This document shows positions 1-17,667 of a DNA stretch of 25,135 nucleotides, one piece after another. A program made the position numbers and the translations under genes. Source of the DNA: Spirogloea muscicola (taxonomy: Eukaryota; Streptophyta; Zygnematophyceae; Spirogloeales; Spirogloeaceae); NCBI GenBank assembly GCA_009602725.1, contig WELB01000138.1:239110-264244 (forward strand). Reading direction: 5' to 3'. The stretch's first letter is position 1, and each line of letters begins with the position of its first letter. A model generated the notes under the pieces. The model saw only the letters and a list, made by a program, of their open reading frames with translations, did not search any database and was not told where the DNA came from.

Positions 1-77
1 CGCCGCCGCCGGCGGGCCCTGGCCGCGGCATCGGCAGCGAGGGGAGGGGCCGCCGCCCCGCCCAGCAAACGTCGCCG
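1..77 (+). promoter_or_regulatory. GC-rich 5' leader / promoter-proximal end of the ABC transporter gene (truncated by window)
   Basis: Very GC-rich sequence with CCG runs immediately before the ATG at 78. It is presumably 5' UTR and proximal promoter, but no TATA-like or other discrete element can be recognised and the window edge cuts it. Confidence 0.3.
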
Positions 78-3000
78 ATGAGGACGCGCGCGGCTGGTGC
101 CGCCTTCGTCCCCTGCATGCTTCTCCAGCGGCGGCGGCGCCGCCGCCGTTCCTCTGGCGGCAGCTTTCGACGGGGCAGCCGCCGCCGGCGGCGGCAGCAG
201 CTGCCGCTGCTCAGCGCCAGTCTGGGCCTGCGGTAAGGACGCCGCTGACGCGTTCCCGCTCGCGCCGGTGACGGGTCTAGGATTTGAACCCGGGTTTCGA
301 GTTTAGGGTTTAGAGTTTAGGGTTTAGGGTGTGGGGGCTCAGGGGTTTAGCAGACCCTACTTGGTACTCGTCAATGGTTTAGGCAAACCAATTTGATGGG
401 GGCCCCTTGTACTGTGACCAGGCCAGCCAGGCCCCGCAGAAGGCAGCGGCGCCGGCCTCGTCGGCTGGCGAGGACGGCGAGCCCGGCGCGGACATCCGCA
501 TCCTCCGCACGCTGTCGGCCTACCTGTGGCCGCGCGACAACCCCGAGCTCCAGCGCCGCGTCGCTGGCTCGCTCGGCCTCCTCGTTGGCTCCAAGGTGGG
601 GTTTTGGGGTTTCGAGGAAGGCCAAGCCCGCAAGACTCTAATAATATGCAATTTGTGGACCTGAACGTGGGCACTCATCGCTGCAGTCAGAAAACCTCAT
701 GAAAGGGCTTGCACCTTCAGCTACTTCATAATTAGCAATTATTGAGAAGATAACGGAAGATGTAGTTACTACGTGGTCTGCTGAACTATATATTACATGC
801 TTATCATCTGTAGTTATGTATCCCATCAATACTTGGTCGTACTTAATACTACATGATGATGATCTGTAAGTATATACCCTGTGAATACTTGGTGGACGTT
901 GCCACTCCTCAGGTCCTCAATATCCAGGTGCCCTTCTTCTTCAAGTACGTGGTGGACACGCTGTCGGCATCGGTCGGCGCTGCGGGCGCAACGGCCGCCG
1001 CCGCCAGCAGCCACCCGCTGCTGTGGCTGGCGGCGTCCAGCCCGCCGGCGCTGCTCCTGGGCTACGGCGCCGCGCGCGCCGGCTCTGCCGCCTGCAACGA
1101 GCTCCGCAACGCCATCTTCGCTAAGGTCGCGCAAGGCACCATCCGCCAGGTCGCCAAGAAGGTGAACACATACTGGGCTGGGCCTGATTATGCTTGTGAT
1201 AGATAACCGGCCGGGAAGTGCTCGGTGCAAATTGTCCAGCTACATCAGAAAGCCCATCTTATCACAGTCAAGGCGGTTCGTTGGCAATCCTGGGCTCTCG
1301 CAGATCCCTTAGTTCGGTTACATTTCCAACATGGGTAGCTCGTAGCGTGTTTTAGAAGCTCGATCCAGCAGCTGCAAGGTGGTCTCGGACGTGCGCTTGG
1401 AACCTGCAGAAGCATCGCAGATCTCAATCCCCCATGGCCGCCAAGAAGCTCGTCAAGCGCAGCTGCTCGCGTAAGGAGGCTCAACAGAAGTTGGCTAGAA
1501 TACAGGATTGCGATTGGTGTGTCTCCAGCCTAGGTCTTGGGGTTTAGGCAGCCTATGTCAAAGGCCTTAAGCCTGGTAAGATGATCAAGTGCTTAGAAGA
1601 GGACCTTAACAATGAACCTCTAAGTGAGGCGCTGCCCGAGCATGTGCAGGTTTTTCTCCACCTCCACAACCTGGACCTCAGCTACCACCTGAGCAGGCAG
1701 ACTGGCGCGCTCAGCCGCACAATCGACCGTGGCATGCGTGGCATCAATTTCATCCTATCCTCCATGGTTTTCAATGTCGTTCCGACGGTGCTGGAGATCA
1801 CTCTGGTCGCCGGCATCCTCGCCTGGAAGTTCGGCTCGCCCTTTGCTCTCATAACGTCCGCCACTGTTGCGGCGTACACTGCCTTCACGCTCGTGGTTAC
1901 GCAGGTTAATATAAGGTCATGTTTTAGGGTCTAGATTGAAGACGAAGTCAAGTGAGCTGTTGCTGCTTGCTAGTCCCTGCAAACTCTGCAATTTTGACAA
2001 CCTCTCTTTTGATAGATATTCAGTATGATGCAACTTGCATATTTGTGACTGTTCCGCTAGTGGCCAAAGCGTTGATATTGATCAAACCTTGTATTGCGAC
2101 GTGGGCTTCCCTGGCTCCATCACTGCAGTGGAGGACCAAGTTTCGGCAGCAGATGAACCAGGCCGACAATGCAGCGAGCTCCCGCGCCGTTGACTCGCTG
2201 ATCAACTATGAGACGGTCAAGTACTTTAACAACGAGGCGCTCGAGGCTGAACGCTATGACAAGTACTTGAAAGGTCTGCACTGATCTGGATCTTTGTTAG
2301 ACCCCACGCTATGAACACAAGGTCGTGACATGGCGGCAGGAAGTGGCAGAGCATCACTTGAGCACGTGTTCCATGGAATGGTTAGGGACATCATAGTTAA
2401 CGGCTGGCCGACCGTGCAGACTATGAGGATGCATCCCTGAAGACGCAGACCAGCCTCTCGCTGCTCAACTTTGGCCAGAATGCCATTTTCAGCTCAGCGC
2501 TCGTCGCGGCAATGATCATGTGCTCCAACGGCATCGTGGCCGGCACCATGTCCATTGGAGATCTGGTAGGCCATCACCACTGGGCAGAAGGAAGAGACTT
2601 GCCTCTTTTGTAAGAGCTTCTATAAGATAGCTGAACAAGCTTGCTCGTGCTTGCCTACTACCGCTGCCAAACCCAAGCCCCCCAGAGCAGGAGTCTGAGT
2701 TGGCCAAGCAAGCAACTTGGCACAGCTGCAAATGTCGCCAGGCTTGAAGTCTGCCATGCTCTGAAGAGCAGGCATAACTATGTTCAATGTAATGTGATAA
2801 ATAATGTAATTGATGGAGCAGATATTATTGGTAACGTTGGTCTCAACAGTGCCGCTGGCATGCCTGCAGGTCATGGTCAACGGGCTTCTCTTTCAGCTCT
2901 CCCTGCCCCTCAACTTCCTCGGCTCCGTGTACCGCGAGACGCGGCAGAGCTTGATTGACATGCAGGCCATGTTCTCTCTCTTGGAGGCAGGATGCTCTTC

Positions 3001-4624
3001 TTAAGCACTACCTCTCGAGATTCTTATGGAGTAATGTGACGAGAGGGTTATGAATAATGTGGCAGTTGTCGTGGCAATGATCAGGACCACCACTAAGGCC
3101 TTTACTTGCAATCTAATCTCGTAGCTGAGAAGCCAAGAGTAAGGAGTCACTTAGAGCCACATTCTTTTACTACATCTCGTGTTCCTGACGTAGTTCCGTG
3201 CCTGACTGTCACTTAACTGCAGGTAGAGCCAGGCGTCTACAACAAGCCCGGTGCAAAGCCGCTGCAGCTGCAGAGCGGCACCATAGAACTGAAGGACGTG
3301 AAGTACGGCTACTTACACGAGAGGCCGATCCTGGACGGAGTCAACCTCACCGTCCCCGGTGGCAAGAGCGTGGCCATCGTTGGCTCCAGCGGCAGCGGCA
3401 AATCCACAATCTTGCGCCTGCTCTATCGCTTCTTCGACCCTGAAGCAGGCGCTGTGAGTCGGAATCAAGTGAAGCAGGCGCTGTGAGTCGGAATCAAGCA
3501 AAGGAATCCTGGGCCCTGAGTTTGGTATTTGAGCATTACTGGAAATTGACATTTGCTGCTGTGGGCAGTGCCTGCTCAGGTCCTGGTGAAGAACTTGTGG
3601 TTGCTTGTCAGAAAATGTCAACTGCCTCAGGTCGAGATTTTCACAGCAGCCTCCAACTTGGCAGGTTCTCGTTGACGGGCAAGATGCGAGGGATGTGACT
3701 CTGGAGAGCCTGAGGTCGTCCATTGGGGTTGTACCGCAGGACACGGTGCTCGTCAATGACACCATCTTTTACAACATACAGTATGGCCGGCCTTCTGCAA
3801 CTGAGGAGGAGGTGAGCATGGCGGGGCCGGCGATGCTGCTTGTATGCTCTATCTGCTGATGACCTCCTTGGCAACACGCAGATAGAACGCCTGCCCCTTG
3901 GACATCTCATGAGTACAGAGAATTGAGCAATGAAGAATATAATGCAGACTCAAGTAGCCATGAGTTGTGGCAGGTGCACCACGCGGCAAAGCAGGCGGCC
4001 ATACATGATGCGATCCTGCGCTTCCCCGAGGGTTACGGGACACAAGTGGGCGAAAGGGGCCTCAAGCTGAGCGGCGGCGAGAAGCAGCGTGTGGCGCTCG
4101 CCCGCGCCTTCCTCAAGTCCCCTGCCATCCTGCTGTGTGACGAGGCCACCAGCGCCCTGGACAGCACGACCGAGGCCGACATTCTGGCTGCTCTTCGGGC
4201 ACTGGCTCAAAACCGCACGTCCATATTCGTCGCGCACCGGCTCACTACCGCCATGCAATGCGACGAGGTCGGCAGATTGAGGGTTCTTGTGATATGATTG
4301 ACTATTTCGTCACAGACAGCTTCTGTCAGGACCTGCTGATGGTCTCTACTGCTTGTAAAACCCAACCCAATGAAAGTGCGGGAGTATACTTCTTGATTAG
4401 GCCATGCTTTAGCCCGCTGACTTTTGCACCGAAAGCTACTGACCTCGCATCTCTTCTGCACTGTGCCCCAGATTGTGGTGCTCGAGCATGGGCAGGTTGT
4501 GGAGAGGGGGTCTCACGATGAGCTGATGCACCAAGATGGACGATATGCACAGCTGTGGCATCAGCAGCAGAGCCTCGATGGAGACGTCATTCATAGTGAG
4601 AAAACCACAGCCGTCACAGGGTAA
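78..4624 (+). CDS. ATM1: Mitochondrial ABC half-transporter, ATM1/ATM3/ABCB7 type (11 exons, complete)
   Basis: Exons read as 78-232, 427-595, 913-1161, 1650-1904, 2129-2273, 2420-2565, 2870-2986, 3223-3453, 3665-3811, 3974-4267, 4472-4624; every phase closes, giving 686 residues, the usual family length. Residues 1-51 are very Arg-rich without acids, as expected of a mitochondrial transit peptide. The six-helix membrane domain lies at about 95-420 and carries the family signatures [15 protein letters not shown] and [13 protein letters not shown]. The ATPase domain follows: Walker [10 protein letters not shown] near 466-474, Q-loop VVPQDT near Q514, signature LSGGEKQ near 570-576, Walker B ILLCDE near 590-595, H-loop His near 626. 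Family knowledge: homodimers in the inner mitochondrial membrane export a glutathione-linked sulfur compound needed for cytosolic Fe-S proteins (and molybdenum cofactor in plants). Oddities: the exon 7 donor appears to be GC, and the exon 8 donor is duplicated. The ATG at 78 is the first that yields a transit peptide; the exact exon 2 acceptor is the least certain junction. Confidence 0.95.
302..329 (+). repeat. Interstitial telomeric repeat (TTTAGGG)n in intron 1 of the ABC transporter
   Basis: Four consecutive 7-mers: TTTAGGG, TTTAGAG, TTTAGGG, TTTAGGG. This is the plant/chlorophyte telomere unit lying inside intron 1 (233-426). The same motif is a known 'telo box' in plant promoters and first introns, so it could be regulatory or a scar of telomere insertion at a break. 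Confidence 0.85.
3441..3498 (+). repeat. 29-bp perfect tandem duplication covering the exon 8 donor site
   Basis: The 29 bases at 3441-3469 are repeated exactly at 3470-3498. The unit contains the last 13 bases of exon 8 and the GTGAGT donor, so two identical donors (after 3453 and after 3482) lie in tandem. Use of the second would add 29 nt and shift the frame before the Q-loop exon, so the first must be used for a functional transporter. Confidence 0.97.
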
Positions 4625-4940
4625 TTGCCCAATGTGAAGATCGCCCTTCCAAATTCTTTTGAATAAGTCCTCAAGAACTCTCAAACAGTGCCTCATAAAG
4701 TGGGGCAGTCCCTAAGAGTAACAGTAAGTGCTTCAATCAATTTTAGCGTTGTGGCTTGCCGGCTTATGGGTTGAGAAGCATGCAGTAAGGGTCAGCACCA
4801 TGTCTGGAACTCAAGATTTCACTGAGACCAGCGCAGTATGCTGATGCACTGCGAGTAAAGCTGTTCTAAGCTGGAGAAATACTAAGCTCCAATCGCCATG
4901 ACTGAATGAATTCTGCTTAGACTGTGAGCCTGGTGAAGGG

Positions 4941-5066
4941 AGAAGGGCGGTGGCTGTGAGAGGCCAGCCAAGAGAGAAGAGTGAACAAGGTTCGAAGAGG
5001 CAAGGGGAAATGCCGAGACACACAGGGAAGCTAGTAGGCTACGAAACACTTAGTAACCTCCTACTA
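4941..5066 (+). repeat. Dispersed hairpin repeat, copy 1
   Basis: Contains the family core GGCTGTGAGAGGCCAGCC, followed by GAACAAGGTTCGAAGAGG, and ends with the family tail resembling CTTAGTAACCTCCTACTA. It lies in the 3' intergenic region of the ABC transporter gene, directly abutting copy 2 in the same orientation. Confidence 0.75.
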
Positions 5067-5069
5067 ATG

Positions 5070-5215
5070 AAGAAAGTGCTCGCCCATAGAGAAGAGGGGC
5101 TGGCAAAGCCAGCCCAAAAAGAATGGACAATGTTCAAAGCCAAAGAAAGAAGTGCCGAAAGAGGACTACACTACAAAGTGCAAGACGGCGCAGAGGGAGA
5201 TGCAGATGGATACTA
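5070..5215 (+). repeat. Dispersed hairpin repeat, copy 2
   Basis: Begins with the family head GAAGAAAGTGCTCGCCC and carries the hairpin GGGGCTGGCAAAGCCAGCCC followed by AAAAAGAATGGACAATG. The 3' part is diverged. It is head-to-tail with copy 1 and about 0.3 kb upstream of the cysteine-module gene. Confidence 0.7.
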
Positions 5216-5501
5216 ACGAGCAGTCGCAGGCAAGCGAAGCTAAGTAACCGGCGGATGGCGGCGCGCAGCAGTCAAGGCGCGCGCTTGGGCGCCGGCGCCA
5301 CGTGGCGACGGGGCGCGGGCTCCCGCGCTCCGGCCCGTTGCGCCCGACGCCCCCGACGGCCCGCCCGTCCGGCCCCCCCGGACGACACCCGCGCGGCCGC
5401 CTCGGATCGTCGGGCGCAGGCCGCCGCCCGACGAACTACTGTCTGCCGCAGGCGGCCGCCGACGGTCAACGGCGCGCAGCTCCCTCCGCCCGCGAGCTGA
5501 G

Positions 5502-5649
5502 CTCCCCGGCGACGCACTCTCCACTCACTCTCCTCCGCTGCCGCCGCTGCNGGCAACCCGACGTGCCGCGTGGGCGGGCGCGCCGTGCCCGTCGGCAGCA
5601 ACTGCGTCGTCACCGCCGCCACCGCCTCCTCCCCCTTCAACCAGGTCCG

Positions 5650-5681
<32 letters not shown>

Positions 5682-7705
5682 AGTGCTGCTGCCCGCCTCA
5701 AGGCCGTGGCTGGCGCCGTCCATGGCGGCCATAGCTTGGAGACCTGGAGATCTGCCGCCGCCAGCGCCCCGCGCTTGAGCCCTGACGCCGCAGCTACCGT
5801 CGTCGGTGCGCAGAATTATGGCATGTATATCGTTGGCGCTCGCGGCAACTGCGTCTGTCGCAAGCGTGAGAGCCAGCCCGCCTCACCAGCAGCAGCTGCG
5901 GCGTTGCTTGTGGCACTCAGCTAGCCGTTGCAAGCCCACTGACGTTACCGGCGGCGTCGTTTGTGGACCTAGCTCGCTGCTGCAAGCCCACTGACGTTGC
6001 CAGTGGCGTCTCTCAGCATCGCCGCCGCCGCCAGCAAAGGCATCCAAGGCCCCCGGGAATCCCACCTGCGTGACGCCCAGCGGTGCTGTCGTCGCGCCTG
6101 CCTCCAATTGTCAGCTCACTGCGTCGGTGAGGCTCTCAGCAATCCTGGAACAGGGTCGGCAGCGCCATTGGCGCTCAGAGTAGCCAAGCACTGGCGCCGA
6201 CATCAGAAACGTGTACTGCATTGACAACAACAGCAGCTCTTAGGATGCTCTCTGCAGTCGTTGGCTCCTGAAGCTTGTTGTAATGAGATTGTTGCGGCAA
6301 TTCCGCAATCTTCTCTTGTGGACGTCCTATGCAGACCTTTGGCGTGTACGTCGTGAATCCCAAGAGTCCCGGCCACTGCCTCTGTATCAAGGTCGCTCCC
6401 AAGCGTGAGCGACACGCCCCATCTCTCTGTCACCTCTGTGCAACATGTGGTGTGGGGACACCTTCTGTCGTGGACTTCGCCTGGGAGTTGTAAGCGCGTC
6501 AACCTGTCCTGTTGTCTGCAGCGCCCCCTGCTACGAAGGCACGGCCAGGCCCTGGAAATCCCACGTGCAAATACAACGGCCTCACTGTCATCGTGTACAG
6601 CAACTGTGCTCTCGGCCCCCGGGTCTGTCCTGCTCCTTCAGCCAAGGGGGTCCTTGCTATGGCCCCGCATGTAGTAAAGTGGAGCTTAAGCATGACTGCA
6701 TCAGAGTCATGGATGATGCCTGCAGGACCTCAAGCACCTAGGCGCAAGTGGCAGATGCAAATAGTGACTAGCTGAACTACAACATGCTTGGGAAATAAAG
6801 CTGCTGCCCAGCACCCCTCCGTCTACGGCTCTGAAGAGAGTGCAGGTTACTCAGTGCACAGCCTGACACTTGCCTCCATCTGCCGCAGTCATATGGGTAT
6901 TACAAGTTGAACCCCTTGCGCAAGGGGACGTGCATCTGCCAGAAGCCCAGTGAGTTGCTGCCCTTTTAGCACCTGTGCTCCTCAAGCATTGTCTCCGATA
7001 AGGGCTGACCAACCAAGTTGAAGCTGCACACAGACTGGCTCTCACTCAGAGCTTCATTGCAACTGCACAACCCTCACAGTGTATCCTTCACAGCCTGTGG
7101 AGGGCCCAGGCCTGACTTTCCTTGTACTTGGCAGCGCCAGTTGCAACTCCCGTGAGCAACAACAGCCCTGGCAATCCAACATGTCGCACAGATGGCGGCG
7201 CAATTGTCCCCATCGCCAGCAATTGCATCGTCAACGCCAGCAAGGTCATAATATTTGCCAGTGCGCGCCATGTCATGCACTCCTGCATTAACAATCACTC
7301 GTCATCGCCATCAAATTGTTTATTGCCATCAATTTGTTGTCTTCATGAAGACCTCAAGGCTTTCATCTAATGTTCACAATTGAGCAGGCCCTGATCTGAC
7401 AGTGCTTATCATGCACATTCTCAGGGGCTGTTCGGGGTATGGTTCAGCAACCCCGCCAAGCCTGGCTACTGCCTCTGCGGCCACCGTCCAAAGCGTGAGC
7501 CTCTTTTGCAACCACCTTCTTTGCTTTGTTCCAGATACAATTATGGCATGTTGTAAGTTGGGCCACATCCTTGCTGAGTTGCACTTTGCAGTCCGTGACA
7601 AGGGTAGAGGAGCCAACCTTGCCGCCGCAACTACTTGTCATTTACCATGTGTTGTCATCGTGTTTCTGAGTGCAACCTGCTGCCCCTTTCACAGGCGGAA
7701 TGTGA
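5502..7705 (+). CDS. Four-module cysteine-rich protein, probably secreted; family not recognised (5' end missing)
   Basis: Exons read as about 5502-5644, 5814-5865, 6017-6126, 6335-6404, 6522-6622, 6889-6949, 7135-7244, 7425-7494 and a last exon 7695-7705 with TGA. They pair into four modules. The first exon of each pair encodes a PGNPTC...G..V...SNC segment; the second encodes (Y/F)G.(Y/W)....PG.C.C...PK, so each module has four Cys (two likely disulfides). Introns inside a module are phase 0 and those between modules are phase 1, and every donor and acceptor agrees, which is strong evidence that the model is real. Modules are joined by short Pro/Lys linkers such as SPPPPAKASKAP. A start exon with signal peptide is not visible: the first module exon meets an N at 5551. 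The paralogous locus at 11337 retains a typical signal peptide, so secretion or a cell-wall location is inferred. No function can be assigned. Confidence 0.75.
5551..5551. other. Ambiguous base (N), probably a gap placeholder inside the cysteine-module gene
   Basis: Sequence left of the N (5441-5520) matches the region upstream of the signal-peptide exon in the duplicate (11176-11250), while sequence right of it is already the first module exon. The signal exon and first intron that should lie between are absent. Confidence 0.6.
5648..5680 (+). repeat. (CCG)n microsatellite in the first visible intron of the cysteine-module gene
   Basis: About ten uninterrupted CCG units between the 5644 donor and the 5814 acceptor. 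It is intronic under the exon model given, so it does not encode a Pro or Ala run. Confidence 0.85.
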
Positions 7706-9338
7706 TTGAATTGAATTCCCTTAATACATTGCCCATCAGGGTGGTGAAAACCACACTGGTAATAGATGGACTGCCGAAACTTTTACTCACCTGCATATCT
7801 TCTATATCGTTGTATGATAAGTATAGGTAGCAAGTACCACTTGCAAGGACATATGAGTAAACGCAGCCACTGGGCACGGACTTTCGCATATTGTGTTAAG
7901 ACATTCATTTATTCATTTTTTCTGGCGCGGCAAAGCCTGCTGCAGCTGTACCATCCATTCCGCAATGCAATATATCAGTCTGATTCTAGCAATAACACCA
8001 CAGTGTAGTCAAGCTAGATCTTACTCGTATGTTACTGCAAGGTATTCACAGAATTCTTGCACACTGTAAGTGCCACTCTTGGCCAAGTCCCTTACTCATG
8101 CTGCTCATGCTGCTGCAAGTGCCACTGCTGGCCCACCTTCAGATTGCGGATTGCCATGCACCTGCTTGCAAGAAGTAATGAGTTGAATGGCAGGGTAGAT
8201 GTAAACCTAGTCATTGTGAGGGCATTGTAGACCATCCAGGCAGTAAAGGCCATGGCCTACTTTCGTATATTACACCAATGTTACACCAAAGCGAGGACAA
8301 GGTAGTCGTTCACAGTGGCGCATATGGGACAATGCTTAAAGACAACAATGCTGGTGACATTTTGCAAGAATCAGGGGCACTTGCTGAGGTGGCACGGTAG
8401 GCAGTTGGGGCAGCTGGCACGTGTGCAGAGTAGTTGCAAGACAGGCGCCGGAAGTTGCTCGAAAGGCCTACGCAAGGTAAACAAGCTGGCCGTAGGTGCT
8501 TTCATAGATAGGAATTCAGATGTTTTGGTTGCTGTGGGAGGCCAAACCTGAAAGGATAGACAGTGCTGTCAAGCTTCATGCAATCTGTTGTCTGCCATGC
8601 GACCCTGATAGGCTGGATTAGCAGGGTAATCAATTTAGATGCTCTGGTCCACATAGTAGGCCAATTAGATCACATATACTTGTAAGAGCAGGATTGCGAT
8701 ATGTGTAGGGAATAGCTGTACTAGTACTGAATAAGCAATACATGCGGAATAGCATTGACATATTACGCTTTAAGAAGTTCTCATGGGTGCGCTTGACATC
8801 TCAGTATAAGGACGTGGCAAAGATGGCAACATAAGTGACAAGTGTCCCAATCATTGAAGTAAGTGAATCAGTCTTTGTGGAGCGAGACTTCTCATTTCAT
8901 GACACGCAATGCATGTGGAGCAAGGCTGACTGTACTTTAGGACACCACAATGCACAAGACTGAGGAATGTATATTGGAATACCTTACAGAGGGTCGTGTA
9001 AGACGGTAACAATGGAAAAGCGAAGAGGAACAGTACATGAGTAACAAAGTAACAGTGACAGAGGAATTGGGAGAAAGAGCCCAACAGATTCAATGTCCAC
9101 AAGTTGTAACATATGTTGATACGGAATGCCACAGGAAGCGATCACACAGGAAGGTGGTGCAAAACCACGTACCATACCTACATAGCATCGAATGACAATG
9201 GCTGTCACGCAGAACACGAGCTTGCCTTGCAAGAATTTGAGCTGCATATTGTAACCGGCGAGCTGGGAGTGGTGAGGACAATGTAAAGAATCCCCACCAA
9301 TCAACCGTCAGTCATCATGACAACCACCCACGCAGCTG
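7706..9338. other. 3' flank of the cysteine-module gene; no further gene seen
   Basis: Roughly 7706-8500 aligns in patches with 12237-12940 downstream of the duplicated pseudogene (for example CTTGCAAGGACAT at about 7838 and 12337, and a GGCGCC.GAA.TTGCT.AAAG block near 8448 and 12883). It is therefore shared 3' UTR/flank of a segmental duplication. TGTAA, the usual chlorophyte polyadenylation signal, occurs at about 8066 and 8200. From 8500 to 9338 only short unsupported open frames are present. Confidence 0.5.
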
Positions 9339-9510
9339 GGCGTGTGGACATAGTCCGTAATCATACGTGAGCACCTGTAGTATTTTCCCCTTGTACGCTC
9401 TACTGTTAGAGAACCGGGGTACTCGAGGTACTAGGGTTCGTAGTAAGGGGAATGGCCGAGACAGCCAGGTGCCCACGTACGAACACAGACTGTGTCCACA
9501 CGCCCAAGTT
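9339..9510. repeat. Long imperfect inverted repeat (foldback / MITE-like, about 172 bp)
   Basis: The left end starts TGGGCGTGTGGACATAGTC and the right end finishes GACTGTGTCCACACGCCCA; the match continues inward through TACGTGAGCACCTG / CAGGTGCCCACGTA and TTCCCCTT / AAGGGGAA. The arms are about 65-75 nt with a short centre. No open frame or clear target-site duplication was found, so it could be a foldback element, a small-RNA hairpin precursor or a decayed MITE. Confidence 0.85.
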
Positions 9511-9711
9511 TATGAGAGTGACTATTTCAACGACTACGACTTAGTGGTGGGAGTTACTTGATGTAACCTGACCCACTTGTAAGTAAGCATGCACGCCACA
9601 CTGGCCCCCTTCCGGACGAGGCCTGGCGTTGCTGTCGCATGCGCCGCCGTCGCCAATGTCCTCATCAGCCCGTCCTCGTATCATCGTTGTAATCGGGTTC
9701 CTCGTTCCCAG

Positions 9712-9750
9712 TCCTATGGCCAGGCCTTTTTTTTTTTCCTATGGCCAGGC
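9712..9750 (+). repeat. Poly(T) tract flanked by 14-bp direct repeats
   Basis: TCCTATGGCCAGGC occurs at 9712-9725 and again at 9737-9750, separated by C plus a run of ten T. The arrangement looks like a target-site duplication around a poly(A/T)-only retroinsertion, or simple slippage. Confidence 0.85.
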
Positions 9751-10060
9751 TCCTTTTCCCGTGAGGACCAGCGCGGGATGCGCAGCTAGTGAGGCTTCAC
9801 GTGGGCCGCAAGAGTGTCGTTGGGCAGGGTTGGGTCCAGCCGCTGGCAATGGTAGGACACAGGCCCAAGCTGCGCGCCTTCACGGTCCTGTTGTAGGCTG
9901 CGTCGTCAGTGGGCTCCGCCGCAGTTGGGCCGATGTTGTCGCCGACGTCTTCCGATCGTTTCTTCTCTTTGTTCATCTTCAGACATTAAACTGGCTTGCT
10001 TTGGACTTCGTCCACGTCATGCGCATTGCGCGCCTTCTGCGCTTGTCTTTTCCGGCTCCG

Positions 10061-10125
10061 TTGGACCTTGTTCGTGGGCTGGCATTCCCCAGCCCTCGCC
10101 CCCTTTGCAAGAGCTTCTCTCTCTT
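10061..10125 (-). repeat. Dispersed hairpin repeat, reverse copy r1
   Basis: Reads GGGCTGG...CCAGCCCTCGCCCC on the + strand, the reverse complement of the family core GGCGAGGGCTG...CCAGCCC. Only the core and part of the flanks remain. Confidence 0.6.
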
Positions 10126-10617
10126 TGGGACAGTGCCTTTGCCACACTTCGGCAAAGCTGTCGGCTTGAGTTAGGGCGGTGTGTCGATAGCGGCACATCC
10201 AGGTGCTCACAAATGAGTGCCAATCACGTCACAACGCCCAGCTGCATGTGGGTGGCTGTCCCGACGACTGACGATTGGTGGTGTCAAATAATGACAATGT
10301 CCTGAACCACTCCTCTTAGGCCGTATTATGATTGCATGGGCCTACACAAAGCGAAGTCTAAATGTGGCCAATGATGGAGGAGCCATCAACACTCTCCTCT
10401 ACCACAGCCGATTGCCTCGTTGGGTCGTACGTCGGCCACTTGGTGGGCTTCTCTGCTTCTCTTCAAGAGGCGCGGGTAAAGCTGATGGGGCCAAAGGTGA
10501 GGGCGGCGCTGGGGGTTGGAGGTGCTGCAAGCGCAGCGTGGTCTACAGGCGTTTTTAGCTTTTTTACAACATGCATTCTGGCCCTTTCAGCTTGAAGAAA
10601 GCGCTTTGCTTCATTTT

Positions 10618-10800
10618 GAAGAAAGGGCTCGCCCATTGAGGATAGGGGCTGGACAAGCCAGCCCAAAAAAGAATGAACAAAGAACGAGAAGGGGGCCAGA
10701 GGAAGCCAGAGGAAGCGCTAAGAAACCAAAGCACACAAAGAAAGAAAGCAGCTACAAATTACTCAGTAACCCCTGCTAAGCAGCCGCAAATCAGAGAGGC
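10618..10800 (+). repeat. Dispersed hairpin repeat, copy 3 (near full length)
   Basis: Head GAAGAAAGGGCTCGCCCATT, hairpin GGGGCTGGACAAGCCAGCCC, then AAAAAAGAATGAACAAAG, a middle with GAAGCGCTAAGA, and the tail ACTCAGTAACCCCTGCTAAG running into GCAGCCGCAAATCAGAGAGG. The same head, hairpin and tail recur in the same order at 24813-25104, which defines the element's extent. Confidence 0.85.
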
Positions 10801-11175
10801 TAGGGTCCTGGAAGTGGGTCCCCTGGACAGAGCCAGAGGCAGCAGCGAGGGCTCTCCCGGCACGAAGGTGCAGCGCACGGGCCATGGACCTCTGCAGCGA
10901 GACGGCCAAGCGCATGCTTTCAGCCCCTTGTTCCATTCCTTGTGGGCTAGCCTCTCATAACCATTCTCTTACATTTGGAAGAGCGCTTTCTCTTCACTCT
11001 AGACCGTAGACATCGCCTTTTAATTTTCAAATATTTAGCTACATTAGCATCCTTGGCAGGTCAAGACGAAGGAGCCACGAGGAAGCACGACAACTGGTTC
11101 CCAAAAGAAAGAGCGCACTATCAATCAGGTAAACAAGCGTTCAAAAGTCCACACGTGGAACAGCAATGATCGCTC
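10801..11175. other. No feature seen
   Basis: Between repeat copy 3 and the duplicated locus. Mixed base composition, only short unsupported open frames, no recognisable RNA gene or repeat. Confidence 0.4.
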
Positions 11176-12240
11176 CGCCATGCAGGCGGCTTCGGCGGTC
11201 AACGACGCGCCCTCGCTGGCGAGCTGAGACTCCCAAGTGCGCATTACCCGATCTCCCGCCATAGTCTTCTCCAAGAGGGCCAGAGCCCCCGGCCCCGCCG
11301 CCGCCCGCCGCCGCTTCAGGATGTTCTGTACGTGCTATGGCGGCGCTGCCGCTGCCGCTGGTGCTGCTCTTGCTGCTGCTGCTCGTCACTGGCCCCGCTG
11401 CCTCGCTCGCTCCAAAACTACTCGAGCTCTGGGTTGCTGGCTGCCCAGGCTGGAACGTACCATGAGCTACATGGTGCTGACCTGAGAGGACCTCTACATG
11501 GTGCATCACTAGCGCCAGGATTACCACTTTGGGCCATCACAGGTGCCTCGTGAGCCAGCGCGTTGTGCCGGTCGGCAGCAATGTGTCTCGACATGACCGT
11601 GCCTATAGCATCGCAGTCCGCCGTCGCCGTCGCCGCTGGCGCCCACATAATTGCCGCCACTGCTCCCGTTGCCGCCGCCTGCAGTCGCCGCTGCCGTGCT
11701 GCTGCACCTCGAGGGCATGGCTGGCGCATTGCGGCTAGCTTGGCACAGACGGCGGTGCAGTTGTTGCTGTTGGCAGCAACAGCGTCATCAATACCAACAA
11801 GGTTGACATTAACGCCCCGAGACCTTGTGTTAGCCGAACGCTTGCTCTTGTAGGACAGCCGCTGCCGTCAGATATGCCTATTTCCTACTGTTCGCACTGA
11901 AGCAGGCCCAGGTTGTGACAGTGGCCATCAGTCAATATTTGTCAGGGGCTCTTTGGGGTGTGGTCCAACGATCTCTATCTGGATTCCTGTGGTGGGTATT
12001 GCAGCTGCAGCCCATCATTCCAATCGTGAGCCCTGCTTGTTACGCTGCTGCCACCTTCTTAGCCTTGTTCCTTGATTGGTATCACACCCTTTCATTACTG
12101 CGCTTCGTCCGAGCATGACTGCTGAGATGCAGATTGCGGTCTGTCACCACGGAAGAGTCAGTCTTGCTGTCGCAGCAACATGTCTTGTACCTTTCACACT
12201 TAAGTGCTATTGCTGCCCCATTTGCAGGTGGATAGTAAAG
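11176..12240 (+). pseudogene. Decayed, internally deleted paralogue of the four-module cysteine-rich gene
   Basis: 11176-11250 matches 5441-5520. A clean signal peptide starts at 11337 (MAALPLPLVLLLLLLLVTG, then PAASLAPK). First-module remnant at 11534-11582 aligns codon for codon with the intact copy (RCLVSQRVVPVGSN against TCRVGGRAVPVGSN) but then loses one base at the SNC cysteine, reaching a stop within a few codons. After intron-like sequence matching 5685-5745 the text jumps, near 11743, to the second half of the fourth module (GTDGGAVVAVGSNSVINTNK up to a donor at 11799), where the SNC cysteine is Ser. The last second-half exon, about 11946-12025 (GLFGVWSNDLYLDSCGGYCS), is out of phase. 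The last exon follows the acceptor ending at 12227. The corresponding 5746-7165 interval is deleted. A short secreted product from the start exon cannot be excluded, but the module protein is dead. Confidence 0.7.
11337..11468 (+). CDS. Signal-peptide start exon retained in the paralogue
   Basis: ATG at 11337 opens a frame of 43 codons including stop (42 residues). It has a short polar start, an 11-residue Leu/Val-rich hydrophobic core and a small-residue cleavage region around TGPAAS, then reaches TGA at 11463-11468 unless spliced at one of the GT sites near 11430 or 11457. It is the best secretory signal in the window and is the likely model for the start exon missing from the intact gene. 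It may now be a non-functional relic. Confidence 0.5.
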
Positions 12241-12523
12241 TGGATCGCCGATAACTTGCACTCCTGAGCTGAGTGTGGGACTTGCAACATCTTATCAAAC
12301 TGGATCTCATTGTCATGCTCACGTGAGTCCATTCTCTTGCAAGGACATGAGAGTAGACAGCTATTGGTCACAGACAGTGCATTCACCACTTGCATCCATT
12401 GCTTCTAGACACGCAAAGCAGGTGTGCCTCCCTGGCCAGTGCAAATTAGTCATAAGCTGCTTAGCCGCCCTATGCTATCGCTGCAAGAGACTACTGACTT
12501 AGAAAGAGGGTTCCCTCTGGCAT

Positions 12524-12585
12524 GTCCTCTTGCTTTTCTGGGCTGGCCATTCACAGCCATCGCCCTCTAGTGGAAGCGTCTTTCA
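12524..12585 (-). repeat. Dispersed hairpin repeat, reverse copy r2
   Basis: Contains GGGCTGGCCATTCACAGCC followed by ATCGCCCTCTAG, the reverse complement of the family core. It sits in the 3' flank of the pseudogene, between it and the RPC3 stop codon. Confidence 0.65.
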
Positions 12586-12941
12586 TCTCCTTGCTGTTGT
12601 TTGATACCGCTGTAGGCCACGCTCATGCAGCTATAGGATCTGCACCAGATTGCAGGACACAACAATTTGACTGAAGGGCTTGTATACCTATACCTGTGAC
12701 TTGCTTTTGTACATGATGCATACGTATCCTTACAAGGCAATGTGGCAGAGAAAAAGGGCGCCAGAAGAGGGACACGAGGGTCAGAAGACAATGCTACTGC
12801 TTGTTTTAATTCGTCACAGAGACCTGCTGACACTGCAAATTAGGCAGCTAAACAGCCAGCAATTGAGTGAAAGAGCAGGAATTGGCGCCAGAACTTGCTA
12901 AAAGTGCAAACGCAAGGAAGAACGCTGGCAAATGAAGGCTG

Positions 12942-15900
12942 TCAGAAGTCGCTAAAAGCAATGATTGCCTCGTCGAGTCGGAGCAAGGAGGATTCCAATA
13001 CAGCGGCCACCTGGCGGACCCGCTCCAGCTGCTGCCGCTGGACAGGTGTCAGAGTCACCGGCTGCACAGGCGTCATGCTGCCCGAGGATGCCGACCTCTG
13101 CATCTGCTCTAGCAGCGCAAGGACCTGCACAAGAATGTGTAATCAGCTTGTCACATTTACCACTTGGATTGCTCGTTTTTGCCATCATACAGGCAAAGCA
13201 ACTGGTATTTGAGAACATGGTCACTAGTCATGGACCAGCTAGAGACACTAATATGCTGCCCTTGGTGGACCTTTTGAGACTGCATGAGCTTTGCAGGCTG
13301 AGAACATCTTGTGAGAAGGTTTGCTTGCTGTCAAGGACACTGCGCTCATGCAAGCACACATGAGGCACTCATCTCAGCCCATGATGAGAAGCAACGAAAG
13401 CAAGGCTATGTCAGCAAGTCAGTTGCATGAAGCTACTTGCACCACCAAAGCTGCTTCAATGTGTCAAGCTCCTGACCTCCTGCTCCTGCTCCACCTCGCA
13501 TGCCAGCCGCTGCCGAAGGTTCGATGCTGCCTTGAACATGCTGTCCAGGACTATTTCACTGACCCGCCCCATGTTGACGTGCCAGAGGTAGAAAGTCCTG
13601 GATGGAGCATGGTCTGACGTCTTCGCAATCTCCTGTGAATCAGCCCAGCAGCATCCTCTATCGTCAGCTACCCCCATAATCTGGCCCCCTTCCAATTCTG
13701 TCTCATGTTGCTATTTTCCGATAGAGATAGCAGCATGTCAGATGGAGCAGAGGCTGAGGTAGCGTAAAGTGGCCTGAGGAGGAGGCAGCAGCCAGAGTCC
13801 AGCTTGGAAGGTCAAGCATAAAGCAGGCCAGACTGCAATTGACATCATTTCTGTATGTACCTGGAGCTGGACAAATTCCTCCTGCAACATTTTGTAAAGC
13901 AGCTCACGGGTATTTTTAATGGGAATCATGGCCATCTCTGCAATCTGTAAAGTAGGTACAACATCAAGGTCATCGTACGAGTGAGGAAGCTGCTCATAGC
14001 TATGCTTGAACTCTGTATACATTGATCTTGACATGGCCTGACATAGTGGTCTCTGCGCAAGGACTTCAGCAGATGCCCATATTGAGCACTTCAACATGCC
14101 CGTAGGATGAACTGGGCTGATTTACTTCGGTGAGATTGAGTGCCAGTCAAAGGGATATGCACTTATTATGAGGAGTACCTGTTTGTGCTCGAGCTGCTTC
14201 TTGCTAAGAAGAAGCCCAAGGATGCGGCAGCTGTGAAGGCCGTACCTTTGAGACACCACAGCTCGAATCTGGCAGAACAAGGCACAATCAGAAGATGCAT
14301 TTGCAGTGGGCAGTCACTGAGCACCAACGCCAAGGCAGAGTAAAGACTATTGGGCATCTGTTGAAAGGCTTGGGTTGCACTTATGTACTTTTCTGCACAT
14401 GCTTTGCCAGCAGGCTGTTCACTGAATAGCAGTCCACTGAAACTTGTCACATCAAGAGAGCTTGATAGGGATCCTACCTCCTGCCTGCGAATTAAGTCAA
14501 CGATTCTGCCGAGATCTGATCGGAGATGGAGTCAAGGTGAGAGCCACCAGGCTTTGTCCTTCATCTCCCTCTCAGGGAGTATAAGCTCATCCAACACACA
14601 TCCAGCAATAGAGCGTATGACATTCCCTCACCCCTGATCAGGCTGCGAGAGAACCATGCTTTGTGGAACTAGCAGGCACAAAGTGGCAGTGACAGATATA
14701 GTACTGTGCAATTTCTGTCAAACCAAATATATGTGTAAATAAACAACTATGGTTGATCATGTAAGATATGACATAATAGTAATATTAACTTACACAGTGT
14801 TGAGTGGTGCAGAGGATATGGCCAGGACTGCTCAACCACATACCCACAAAGATGACGGCCCTTGTCATTGTGATCCCAACAAGAAGGCTACAGATTAAGA
14901 ATTGCCGAAGGTGGTAGCAATATGGAGAATTCAACTGACGGACGGATACTTATTACAAATTGGCCACCGCCGCTTCCTTCGCCAACTCGAGAAGCCAGGC
15001 CTTCGGCATCTGACGCCATGAGTTGCAGTGCAGTCCGGACGCGATCGAGCGTAAGAGATGTTCCTTTGGGCATCCGTTGAGTTGCCTGCAGAGCTGCTTC
15101 AACGGTGATGGGAGCTGCACGCAAGTTGCTGAGAGTGAGAAATCGCTGGTGAATCAAGTATGTATTAAGCCTCTTGCTCATTTAGGATTGTATCACTATG
15201 TCATTGGACATAGTTGTGTGCAGATTGTGTGAAGAGCACGTGCCACTTAGGCGCAACTTTGGAGGACAACACTGAATTCTCATTACTGCATGTGCTGAAG
15301 CTTAAGGTGAACCATAGCTGTTACATCTCTCAATCTTGCTTGATGAAGAAGCAACGTGCTGGTGGACCTGTGTACGCTTGCTGGAGGGAGCTTTCGCTAG
15401 TGCGTCCAGAGTCCAGGATTGCCTCCAGCACTGTCCCCGCCAAGGGGTCTATACGCTTGCGCACTTGCTCCACGCAGGCCTGCGTGAGCTTCGGCATTGT
15501 TCTGAGATGCTCCTGAATGATGAACTCCAGTAACCCTCTCAAACCCACACCCCATTCCTGGTTGGTTGCACCCAACAGACGCGCAGCTACGCCAAACCAG
15601 GGGGCAGCTCAAGCAGCATGTTGTCTGCCGAACCTGGTGCCGGAATCGTCGGAGGATTTCGGAGAAGTTCACTTTCCACAACACATCCGTTTCCTCAGCA
15701 TCCAGACGATCTTTGTCTTCTTGTTCATCAGCTGGCACATTTGCGTGCTCCTCTGCTTGGTCGGCGTCGTCATCCATGATGACCCTCCTACGCTGACCAT
15801 GACAGAACACTTGCATTACTCTATGAAGCTCAGCTACAACCTCGCCGTGCAGGCTGCTGGCTATCAGCATGGCTCCTCCAACAGCTTGCACTTGACAACT

Positions 15901-17667
15901 GCTCATCTGCAACAGTTTGAAGCCACAAGAAGGCAAAGCAGCTGCAAGCTCCTCACCTTCATGGCAGGTGTGTGGCTGCTCTGATCAAGACCATCCTCGT
16001 TGGTGTGAGCCTGAGCGAATGCAAGGGAGGACGGCAGGCGGAATCTGTCTGTTCCTTCTGGCATGGCAGCATTTACAATCCGCAACTCTTCTGTGGCGCC
16101 AACGCCCGCTTCAATGATCGCTCTGCCCCGCTGGTTCACGCCAGGGCAGAGCAAGGTACGAGTGCATTAGAGACGGACATAAATGGAGGGCAGCTTACTA
16201 TATAGTTGGAGATGGCTTGCCCTTGACAGTGGCTCGCTCGATATTCTCATATCCCTCTGTGAGCCAATTCTCAATAGTGCAGCCAGGGTTCTAGGACAGC
16301 TCTCAGGCCTTTATGCAAGTTGCATCAGATGAACACCTTGATCAATGCTCTCCTTCCTTGCACATATCTTCTGCTGGACACTTACTTGTCCCCTCTGACC
16401 TTTTCTGTAAGCATCCACGCTGTCAAGGCTTGGCAATGCAGGCTCTGGCTTGGGGCATCGCTCCAGGTAGAATTCTGAAACAAGAGCTACAAATGCTGCT
16501 TGCACGGACTTACGGGCCTCCTTCTCACCTGTAGGTGACGACCAAAGTGTCACAGAAAAGACTACTTGCTGACTGCTCGTCGATAAGGCAATATGATCAG
16601 GTGATGAGCACAGTAGAGTAGGACCAGCAAGCTGTGAGGTTGGTCAGACACAGCACCTAAAGTACTACAAGTTATCAGAAGAGCACCTTGACTGCCTCGT
16701 GCGGCAGCTCGCTGAACAATCTGCTGAAAGGACAGTCGACCATGCTCCAGAAGGCCTTCCACGACCGCCTCTGTCTGCAACACCATCAGGCCGTCTAAGC
16801 TGGTGACTGGAGACAATCGTCTTTGTCCTCCATCTGATCGAAAGGTGGGATAAGAAGACTGAAATGTTGCTTCCATACCTCGTTCCCAAGCTTATTGCGT
16901 ATGTGGAGGAGAAAGCGTGGGTATCTCAACCGCTGCCTGATGTTGTCTGTGAGGGCAGTGTAGTAGGTCTGCATTCTAGCTGCAGCTGAGTTGGCTGCAC
17001 AGAGGAGAGATAACATATAGCTGTCAGAGCAGGCATCAGCATAATAAGTCAACTCTTTACGATTTTCCAGAATTGACTAGATAAGACAATTCGAGGAACC
17101 TGACTTGCTCTTGCTGCAAATCAGAGGACCATTGGCAGCGGTCTATTATATACAAGACAAGTGAAGGCCAAGAGCATCCCAGAGAGACGTGACTGACCGT
17201 CCGCCTCCACTCTGTAGGCTTGCACGCAGTGATGCTGGACGAGGACCAGCAAGTAGCTGCGAAGGTCCGCAGGAGGAAGGCCAGTCTCGCGCGAGATCTC
17301 CGCCAGGGTCAGCTGCCCCTTGTGGACGAGCGTAGAGCACACCTTCTTCGCAGTAGCAATGGCAGCTGCAGCAGAAGCTCCTTGCAGGAGCCTGTAGCTA
17401 TGCACGGCTGCTGTTATAGAGCGAGCAATGGCGGACGTCGACCGCACGGAGCACGCCGTCAGGCATTTGGCCAGCTGCGGCAATGCCACACTCTACGACC
17501 TCTGCTGTGCAACTGACAGCCTGAGCAGCTGATTGGCTGCACGACAGTGCAGCAACACGGCGGCGGCGGCGGCGGCGGCGGCGGCTGCGGCGCACCTCGA
17601 CGAGGGCGCCGAATGTGTCCTGCACGGCCTCGCAGGCGAGCTTCAGGCCATGGCGCGTGCTCGGCAT
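12942..17667 (-). CDS. RPC3: RNA polymerase III subunit RPC3 (RPC82/POLR3C), 14 exons, complete
   Basis: Exons in coding order: 17667-17596, 17345-17198, 16979-16879, 16774-16687, 16528-16386, 16130-15957, 15906-15634, 15512-15368, 15114-14950, 14515-14478, 14268-14179, 13944-13861, 13632-13477, 13124-12942. All phases join, giving 619 residues (human about 534, yeast about 654). Recognised blocks, in order: N-terminal winged helix (HGLKLACEAVQDTFGALVE, KGQLTLAEISRETGLP, LLVLVQHHCV); RLRYPRFLLHIRNKLG; VVEGLLEHGRLSFQQIV; acidic linker then LWKVNFSEILRRFRHQ; GGGQFVINL; VVSQRYGLHSCRILGLLLSK; AEMAMIPIKNTRELLYKML; KTSDHAPSRTFYLW; C-terminal RLDEAIIAF. Family knowledge: RPC3 with RPC6 and RPC7 forms the Pol III heterotrimer that helps open the promoter and recruit TFIIIB for tRNA and 5S rRNA synthesis in the nucleus. 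Exon 10 is only 38 nt and the intron between exons 6 and 7 only 50 nt. The exon 2 acceptor may be 3 nt off. Confidence 0.93.
17555..17584. repeat. (CGG)n microsatellite in intron 1 of RPC3
   Basis: A run of about nine GGC/CGG units on the + strand, just downstream (in coding sense) of the exon 1 donor at 17595. A Walker-like or Gly-rich protein reading is not supported by the exon model. Confidence 0.85.

Follow-up and report, generated by a model that had tools for sequence, protein, structure and literature searches.

Modules that are bounded by phase-1 introns are called class 1-1 in a 2021 review, which also raises the question of why exon shuffling is confined to Metazoa (PMC8001218). 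The animal class 1-1 modular extracellular proteins treated there share several features with the gene described here from the alga Spirogloea muscicola, namely phase-1 module borders, tandem copies, a probably extracellular location and a disulfide-type cysteine pattern. In contrast, the algal module is split by a phase-0 intron and occurs in one gene type only. The plant proline-rich tandem-repeat wall proteins (PMC3149072) are similar to the algal protein in their proline-rich stretches, repeats and possible wall location, although they repeat a short proline motif, whereas the unit repeated in the alga spans about 40-46 residues and carries four cysteines. Hevein-type and cysteine-bearing LysM sugar-binding domains are likewise small, with cysteines, aromatic residues and tandem repeats; unlike them, the algal modules have no Pfam match. 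Additionally, the cysteine spacing of both differs from that of the algal module.

Organization of the four-module gene

The window, which is the whole stretch of 25,135 nucleotides that was analyzed (C138:239110-264244 of the 153 Mb assembly), belongs to a region that was found in three syntenic copies (window 1-13500, C4:1448001-1460500 and C5:256501-270500), whose main aligned blocks are approximately 75-89% identical at the DNA level. Splicing of the window sequence produced one frame of 219 residues, made up of eight coding exons plus a terminal exon of 11 bases and ending in a TGA at 7705. The features of this gene, referred to as A, are as follows.

5551, + strand: assembly N directly 5' of the first exon, where the start codon and leader were presumably lost
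5552..5644, + strand: module 1 first half (GNPTC..SNC), ending in phase 0; 5' end incomplete; 89/93 identical to C5, and missing from the C4 assembly
5814..5865, + strand: module 1 second half (NYGMY..GNCVC), ending in phase 1
6035..6126, + strand: linker and module 2 first half, starting in phase 1 and ending in phase 0; acceptor CCAG
6335..6404, + strand: module 2 second half (TFGVY..GHCLC), ending in phase 1
6522..6622, + strand: Pro/Lys-rich linker and module 3 first half
6889..6949, + strand: module 3 second half (SYGYY..GTCIC), ending in phase 1
7135..7244, + strand: Ser/Asn/Pro linker and module 4 first half
7425..7494, + strand: module 4 second half (GLFGVW..GYCLC) and basic tail, ending in phase 1
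7695..7705, + strand: terminal 11-base exon with stop (..RGM*); 11/11 identical, with acceptor AG, in all three syntenic copies

All eight introns of the window gene had GT..CAG ends and lengths of 117-266 bases. The four introns inside modules were in phase 0, and the three between modules, together with the one before the last exon, were in phase 1. In a search of the six frames of the window, the first half-module (GNPTC..SNC) and the second half-module ([YF]G.[YW]..G.C.C) were each found four times, and neither was found in 100 dinucleotide shuffles; the DNA pattern for GNPTC had four exact matches in the window, all inside this gene. The residues invariant in the four modules were GNPTC, one G, one V, SNC, G and GxCxC. 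In particular, the four cysteines, including those of CxC, were invariant in the four window modules and in 10 aligned module sequences. When module pairs were compared against shuffled sequence, with the B modules taken from the second copy at C4, the ten pairs among A1-A4 and B3 gave z-scores of 8.7-18.7, and the five pairs with B4 gave 3.7-16.5. These results agree with an earlier note on this DNA, which had claimed two half-module motifs with four occurrences each, four homologous four-cysteine modules, one gene with four exon pairs, and phase 0 within and phase 1 between modules: all four pairs were present and spliced into one frame, the z-scores support homology, and the phase pattern was borne out at all eight introns.

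The span of 5502-7705 given in the earlier note does not hold at its 5' end, as 5502-5551 cannot contain the gene start as read. No in-frame ATG was present upstream of module 1 after the stop at 5498-5500, and the N lies at 5551. We also observed N's in the same 5' region of the syntenic copies; C5 has 144 N directly before AAGNPTC, and C4 has one N, after which the first exon is absent, leaving eight of nine exons in the C4 gene. We read these N's as a gap in the assembly that conceals the start codon and leader. In the reversed C4 stretch, approximately 250 bases at 3180-3430 (about C4:1457071-1457321) replace the first exon, and module 1 was not found there; the replacement reflects either an assembly error or the true loss of this exon from the C4 copy.

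The linkers that connect the modules are rich in Pro, Lys, Ser, Thr and Ala. Without a leader, the 219-residue product contains 16 Cys, 28 Pro, 9 Tyr, 2 His, 24 Lys and Arg taken together, one Asp and no Glu. The computed pI was 9.8 for the product and 7.9-9.3 for the modules.

Sequence constraint across the three syntenic loci

A protein search of the genome gave 29 matches, which covered 8/8 module exons at C138, 8/8 at C5 and 7/8 at C4; five of the remaining matches were to second copies beside the C5 and C4 genes, and one was weak and unrelated (E 0.5). Comparison of the C138, C5 and C4 genes revealed no indel in any exon present (the C4 first exon is missing). The splice junctions and frame were kept at 8/8 introns in C5 and 7/8 in C4, and all aligned cysteines were conserved. 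For the three locus pairs, exon identity was 617/660, 526/567 and 536/567 (93-95%), and intron identity was 1248/1457, 1249/1456 and 1248/1470 (85-86%), with Fisher p values of 1e-7, 1e-5 and 3e-10 for the difference. The changes at the three codon positions numbered 10/5/28, 11/3/27 and 4/3/24, and omega was 0.16, 0.15 and 0.078, at a dS of about 0.2 between syntenic copies. The modules were more constrained than the linkers in each pair, as linker omega was 0.23, 0.37 and 0.12, compared with 0.13, 0.09 and 0.05 for the modules. The lack of exon indels, the higher identity of exons than introns and the low omega thus indicate a constrained gene. Judged by these alignments, the four-module gene is real, is under purifying selection and did not arise by chance.

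A decaying tandem copy

Approximately 6 kb downstream of A, what is left of a second gene, B, lies at 11.3-12.2 kb of the window and has the following two parts.

11337..11411, + strand: copy B leader MAALPLPLVLLLLLLLVTGPAASLA, hydrophobic and signal-like by eye, with homologous stretches in C5-B and C4-B
11532..12240, + strand: remains of copy B, with module 1 first half, both halves of module 4 and the last-exon region

In the window copy of B, modules 2 and 3 were not found, cysteines have been lost (SNC of module 4 reads SNS) and two stops lie between the leader and module 1. In the homologous stretches, the leader ATG reads TTG in C5-B, and the frame is broken in C4-B, where the stretch stands right before module 1. 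None of the three B copies has an open frame that runs from the leader into module 1. B modules 3 and 4 were located at about C5:257.7-258.6k and C4:1449.2-1450.4k, with the second half of module 2 included in the C4 range, and the B first-exon region lies 3.6 kb (C5) and 2 kb (C4) from them. In the C4 copy, module 1 can be read in its first half and module 2 in its second half, and modules 3 and 4 are also readable and retain their cysteines; by inspection, the intron phases of this copy were the same as those of A. Between C4 and C5, the exons of B modules 3 and 4 were identical at 294/343 positions and the intervening introns at 521/612 (p 0.85). Since its exons diverge at the rate of its introns, copy B looks released from selection, and this parity serves as an internal comparison against which the constraint on A stands out.

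The same-numbered A module was the best match for all six B halves scored; the second half of B1 and the first half of B2 were not found and were left out of this scoring. By these best matches, the four modules predate the A/B tandem duplication, and the A/B split predates the three syntenic copies. The three syntenic copies and the decayed tandem copies together make the order of events readable.

Probable growth by exon-pair duplication

The three between-module introns and the intron after module 4 are all in phase 1, which places the modules in class 1-1 for the borders downstream of module 1, the border before module 1 being out of view. Duplication of a unit that has phase-1 introns at both ends leaves the reading frame intact. 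The proposal that the gene grew by duplication of exon pairs is supported by the homology of the modules, and the two-exon unit would have multiplied before the tandem duplication and the regional triplication. The introns of different modules showed no clear homology, with one 11-base match at E 0.096; either the module duplications are therefore old or the introns have turned over. Reuse of the module in other gene architectures was not encountered, as 28/29 genome matches fell in A and B at the three loci and a second genome query placed 20/20 matches in the same loci, in searches whose scoring was limited to the best candidates and whose reach was limited to fairly close copies. Because the module was found in no other architecture in its own genome, we call the process tandem duplication and not shuffling.

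Genomic context

Two further genes flank the locus in the window.

about 400-4600, + strand: multi-exon ABC transporter gene, upstream, with PF00005 in the exon 3923-4297
about 13738-17489, - strand: RNA polymerase III subunit RPC82/POLR3C gene, with PF08221 and PF22536

The neighboring ABC-transporter gene, which we take to be of the half-transporter type, has an exon with three close copies (C138, C4 and C5) that are 98-100% identical in protein, and the next match was at 56%. The nuclear Rubisco small subunit was found at four two-exon loci (C39, C8, C42 and C441) and not at three, and chlorophyll a/b-binding proteins are also present in the genome. A Rubisco small-subunit fragment matched PDB chains with a best E of 2e-34 (1ej7, 9e-34; 1aa1, 4e-33; 1gk8, 3e-24); we take the better-matching chains, such as 1ej7 and 1aa1, to be from land plants and 1gk8 to be from Chlamydomonas. 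From the three syntenic copies of the region and these gene copy numbers, a triplicated genome is possible, and triplication of the whole genome is reported for Spirogloea muscicola (PMC7994812, PMC11547041 and PMC9065682).

Several additional features were observed in the window. A stretch of approximately 700 bases (9378-10074) is absent from C5, where window 9377 joins 10075, and inverted-repeat arms at 9329-9377 and 10200-10248 flank it; this stretch may have been inserted as a mobile element. C4 in turn lacks window 8958-9621. The palindromic dispersed repeat GGGGCTGGCNAAGCCAGCCC was found at three + strand sites (5096, 10645 and 24841) with up to 2 mismatches; for up to 3 mismatches, the shuffling expectation was 0.01 matches. 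The window gave no match to Rfam.

Search for known relatives

Single sequences were scanned against Pfam, NCBIfam and PHROGs, and no family was found at a limit of E 10, with HMMER filters that drop most matches above about 0.1. In Pfam, the whole protein, two single modules and all 10 module sequences had no match. Neither the 219-residue protein nor a profile of 10 modules matched a PDB chain sequence at E values of up to 10. Scans of viral contigs and prokaryote genome contigs, each using between one and six short peptide patterns, and a search of phage records, all run without a positive control, yielded no confirmed relative. Literature searches by motif strings revealed nothing on such a protein in the titles and abstract starts, and searches on secreted cysteine-rich algal proteins revealed nothing on the four-module gene, in both cases among the matches listed. 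The idea that the domain is undescribed thus stood in so far as it is absent from Pfam, NCBIfam, PHROGs and the PDB sequences; the word means absence from the sets searched, because eukaryotic proteomes were not among them. It is possible, if doubtful, that the modules form an undescribed domain family confined to zygnematophytes or other streptophyte algae, in which a multivalent extracellular protein was built by class 1-1 exon-pair duplication independently of animals.

Putative function of the four-module protein

A basic, proline-linked repeat of four-cysteine modules with conserved aromatic residues fits a wall- or mucilage-associated binding protein. We propose, with a confidence just short of an even chance, that the gene encodes a secreted, basic, multivalent protein that binds wall or mucilage. 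Export would depend on a signal peptide at the N-terminus, which the assembly gap would have removed, and the four cysteines of each module would form two disulfides. The conserved aromatics around Y/F-G-x-Y/W, together with a basic surface, might bind a wall or mucilage polysaccharide, which is a guess from composition. Four linked modules could then hold several chains at once and thereby cross-link or anchor them. The hydrophobic leader kept by copy B would suit export; against secretion, no B copy at the three loci reads openly from this leader into module 1, and the leader of the intact gene is unseen.

An unlikely alternative is a structural wall or mucilage protein, held by tyrosine and disulfide cross-links and having no specific sugar binding. 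The repeat architecture and the Pro, Tyr and Cys content (28, 9 and 16 in 219 residues) are consistent with such a protein, but the module omega of 0.05-0.13 is a tighter constraint than would be expected of a loose structural repeat.

Slightly less likely again is a secreted precursor that is cut at basic linkers to release four small cationic disulfide antimicrobial peptides. The product is basic, Lys or Arg occurs in several linkers, each unit holds one compact four-cysteine module, and the linkers evolve faster than the modules by the omega values given above. However, two of the three inter-module linkers contain no dibasic site by inspection, the modules have a computed pI of 7.9-9.3 with many uncharged residues, and there was no Pfam match of any kind.

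We consider it improbable that the modules are individual metal sites (C..C..CxC) and that the protein binds or stores metal. The invariance of the four cysteines, CxC included, in the four window modules and the 10 aligned modules would suit such a site, but the product has only 2 His and no Pfam match, and the copy B leader, if it is a signal peptide, would direct the protein to an oxidizing compartment. Finally, that there is no gene and that chance open stretches lie between splice-like sites is rejected as scarcely credible: although the gene model was derived from sequence alone and its start is missing, the half-modules were found in 0/100 shuffles, and the exons present are free of indels with omega of at most 0.16 across the three loci.

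If the module proves to be new and specific to streptophytes, it would add a wall or mucilage component in an algal group next to land plants, and the gene would be a clean example outside animals of an extracellular protein that was enlarged step by step through duplication of exon pairs.
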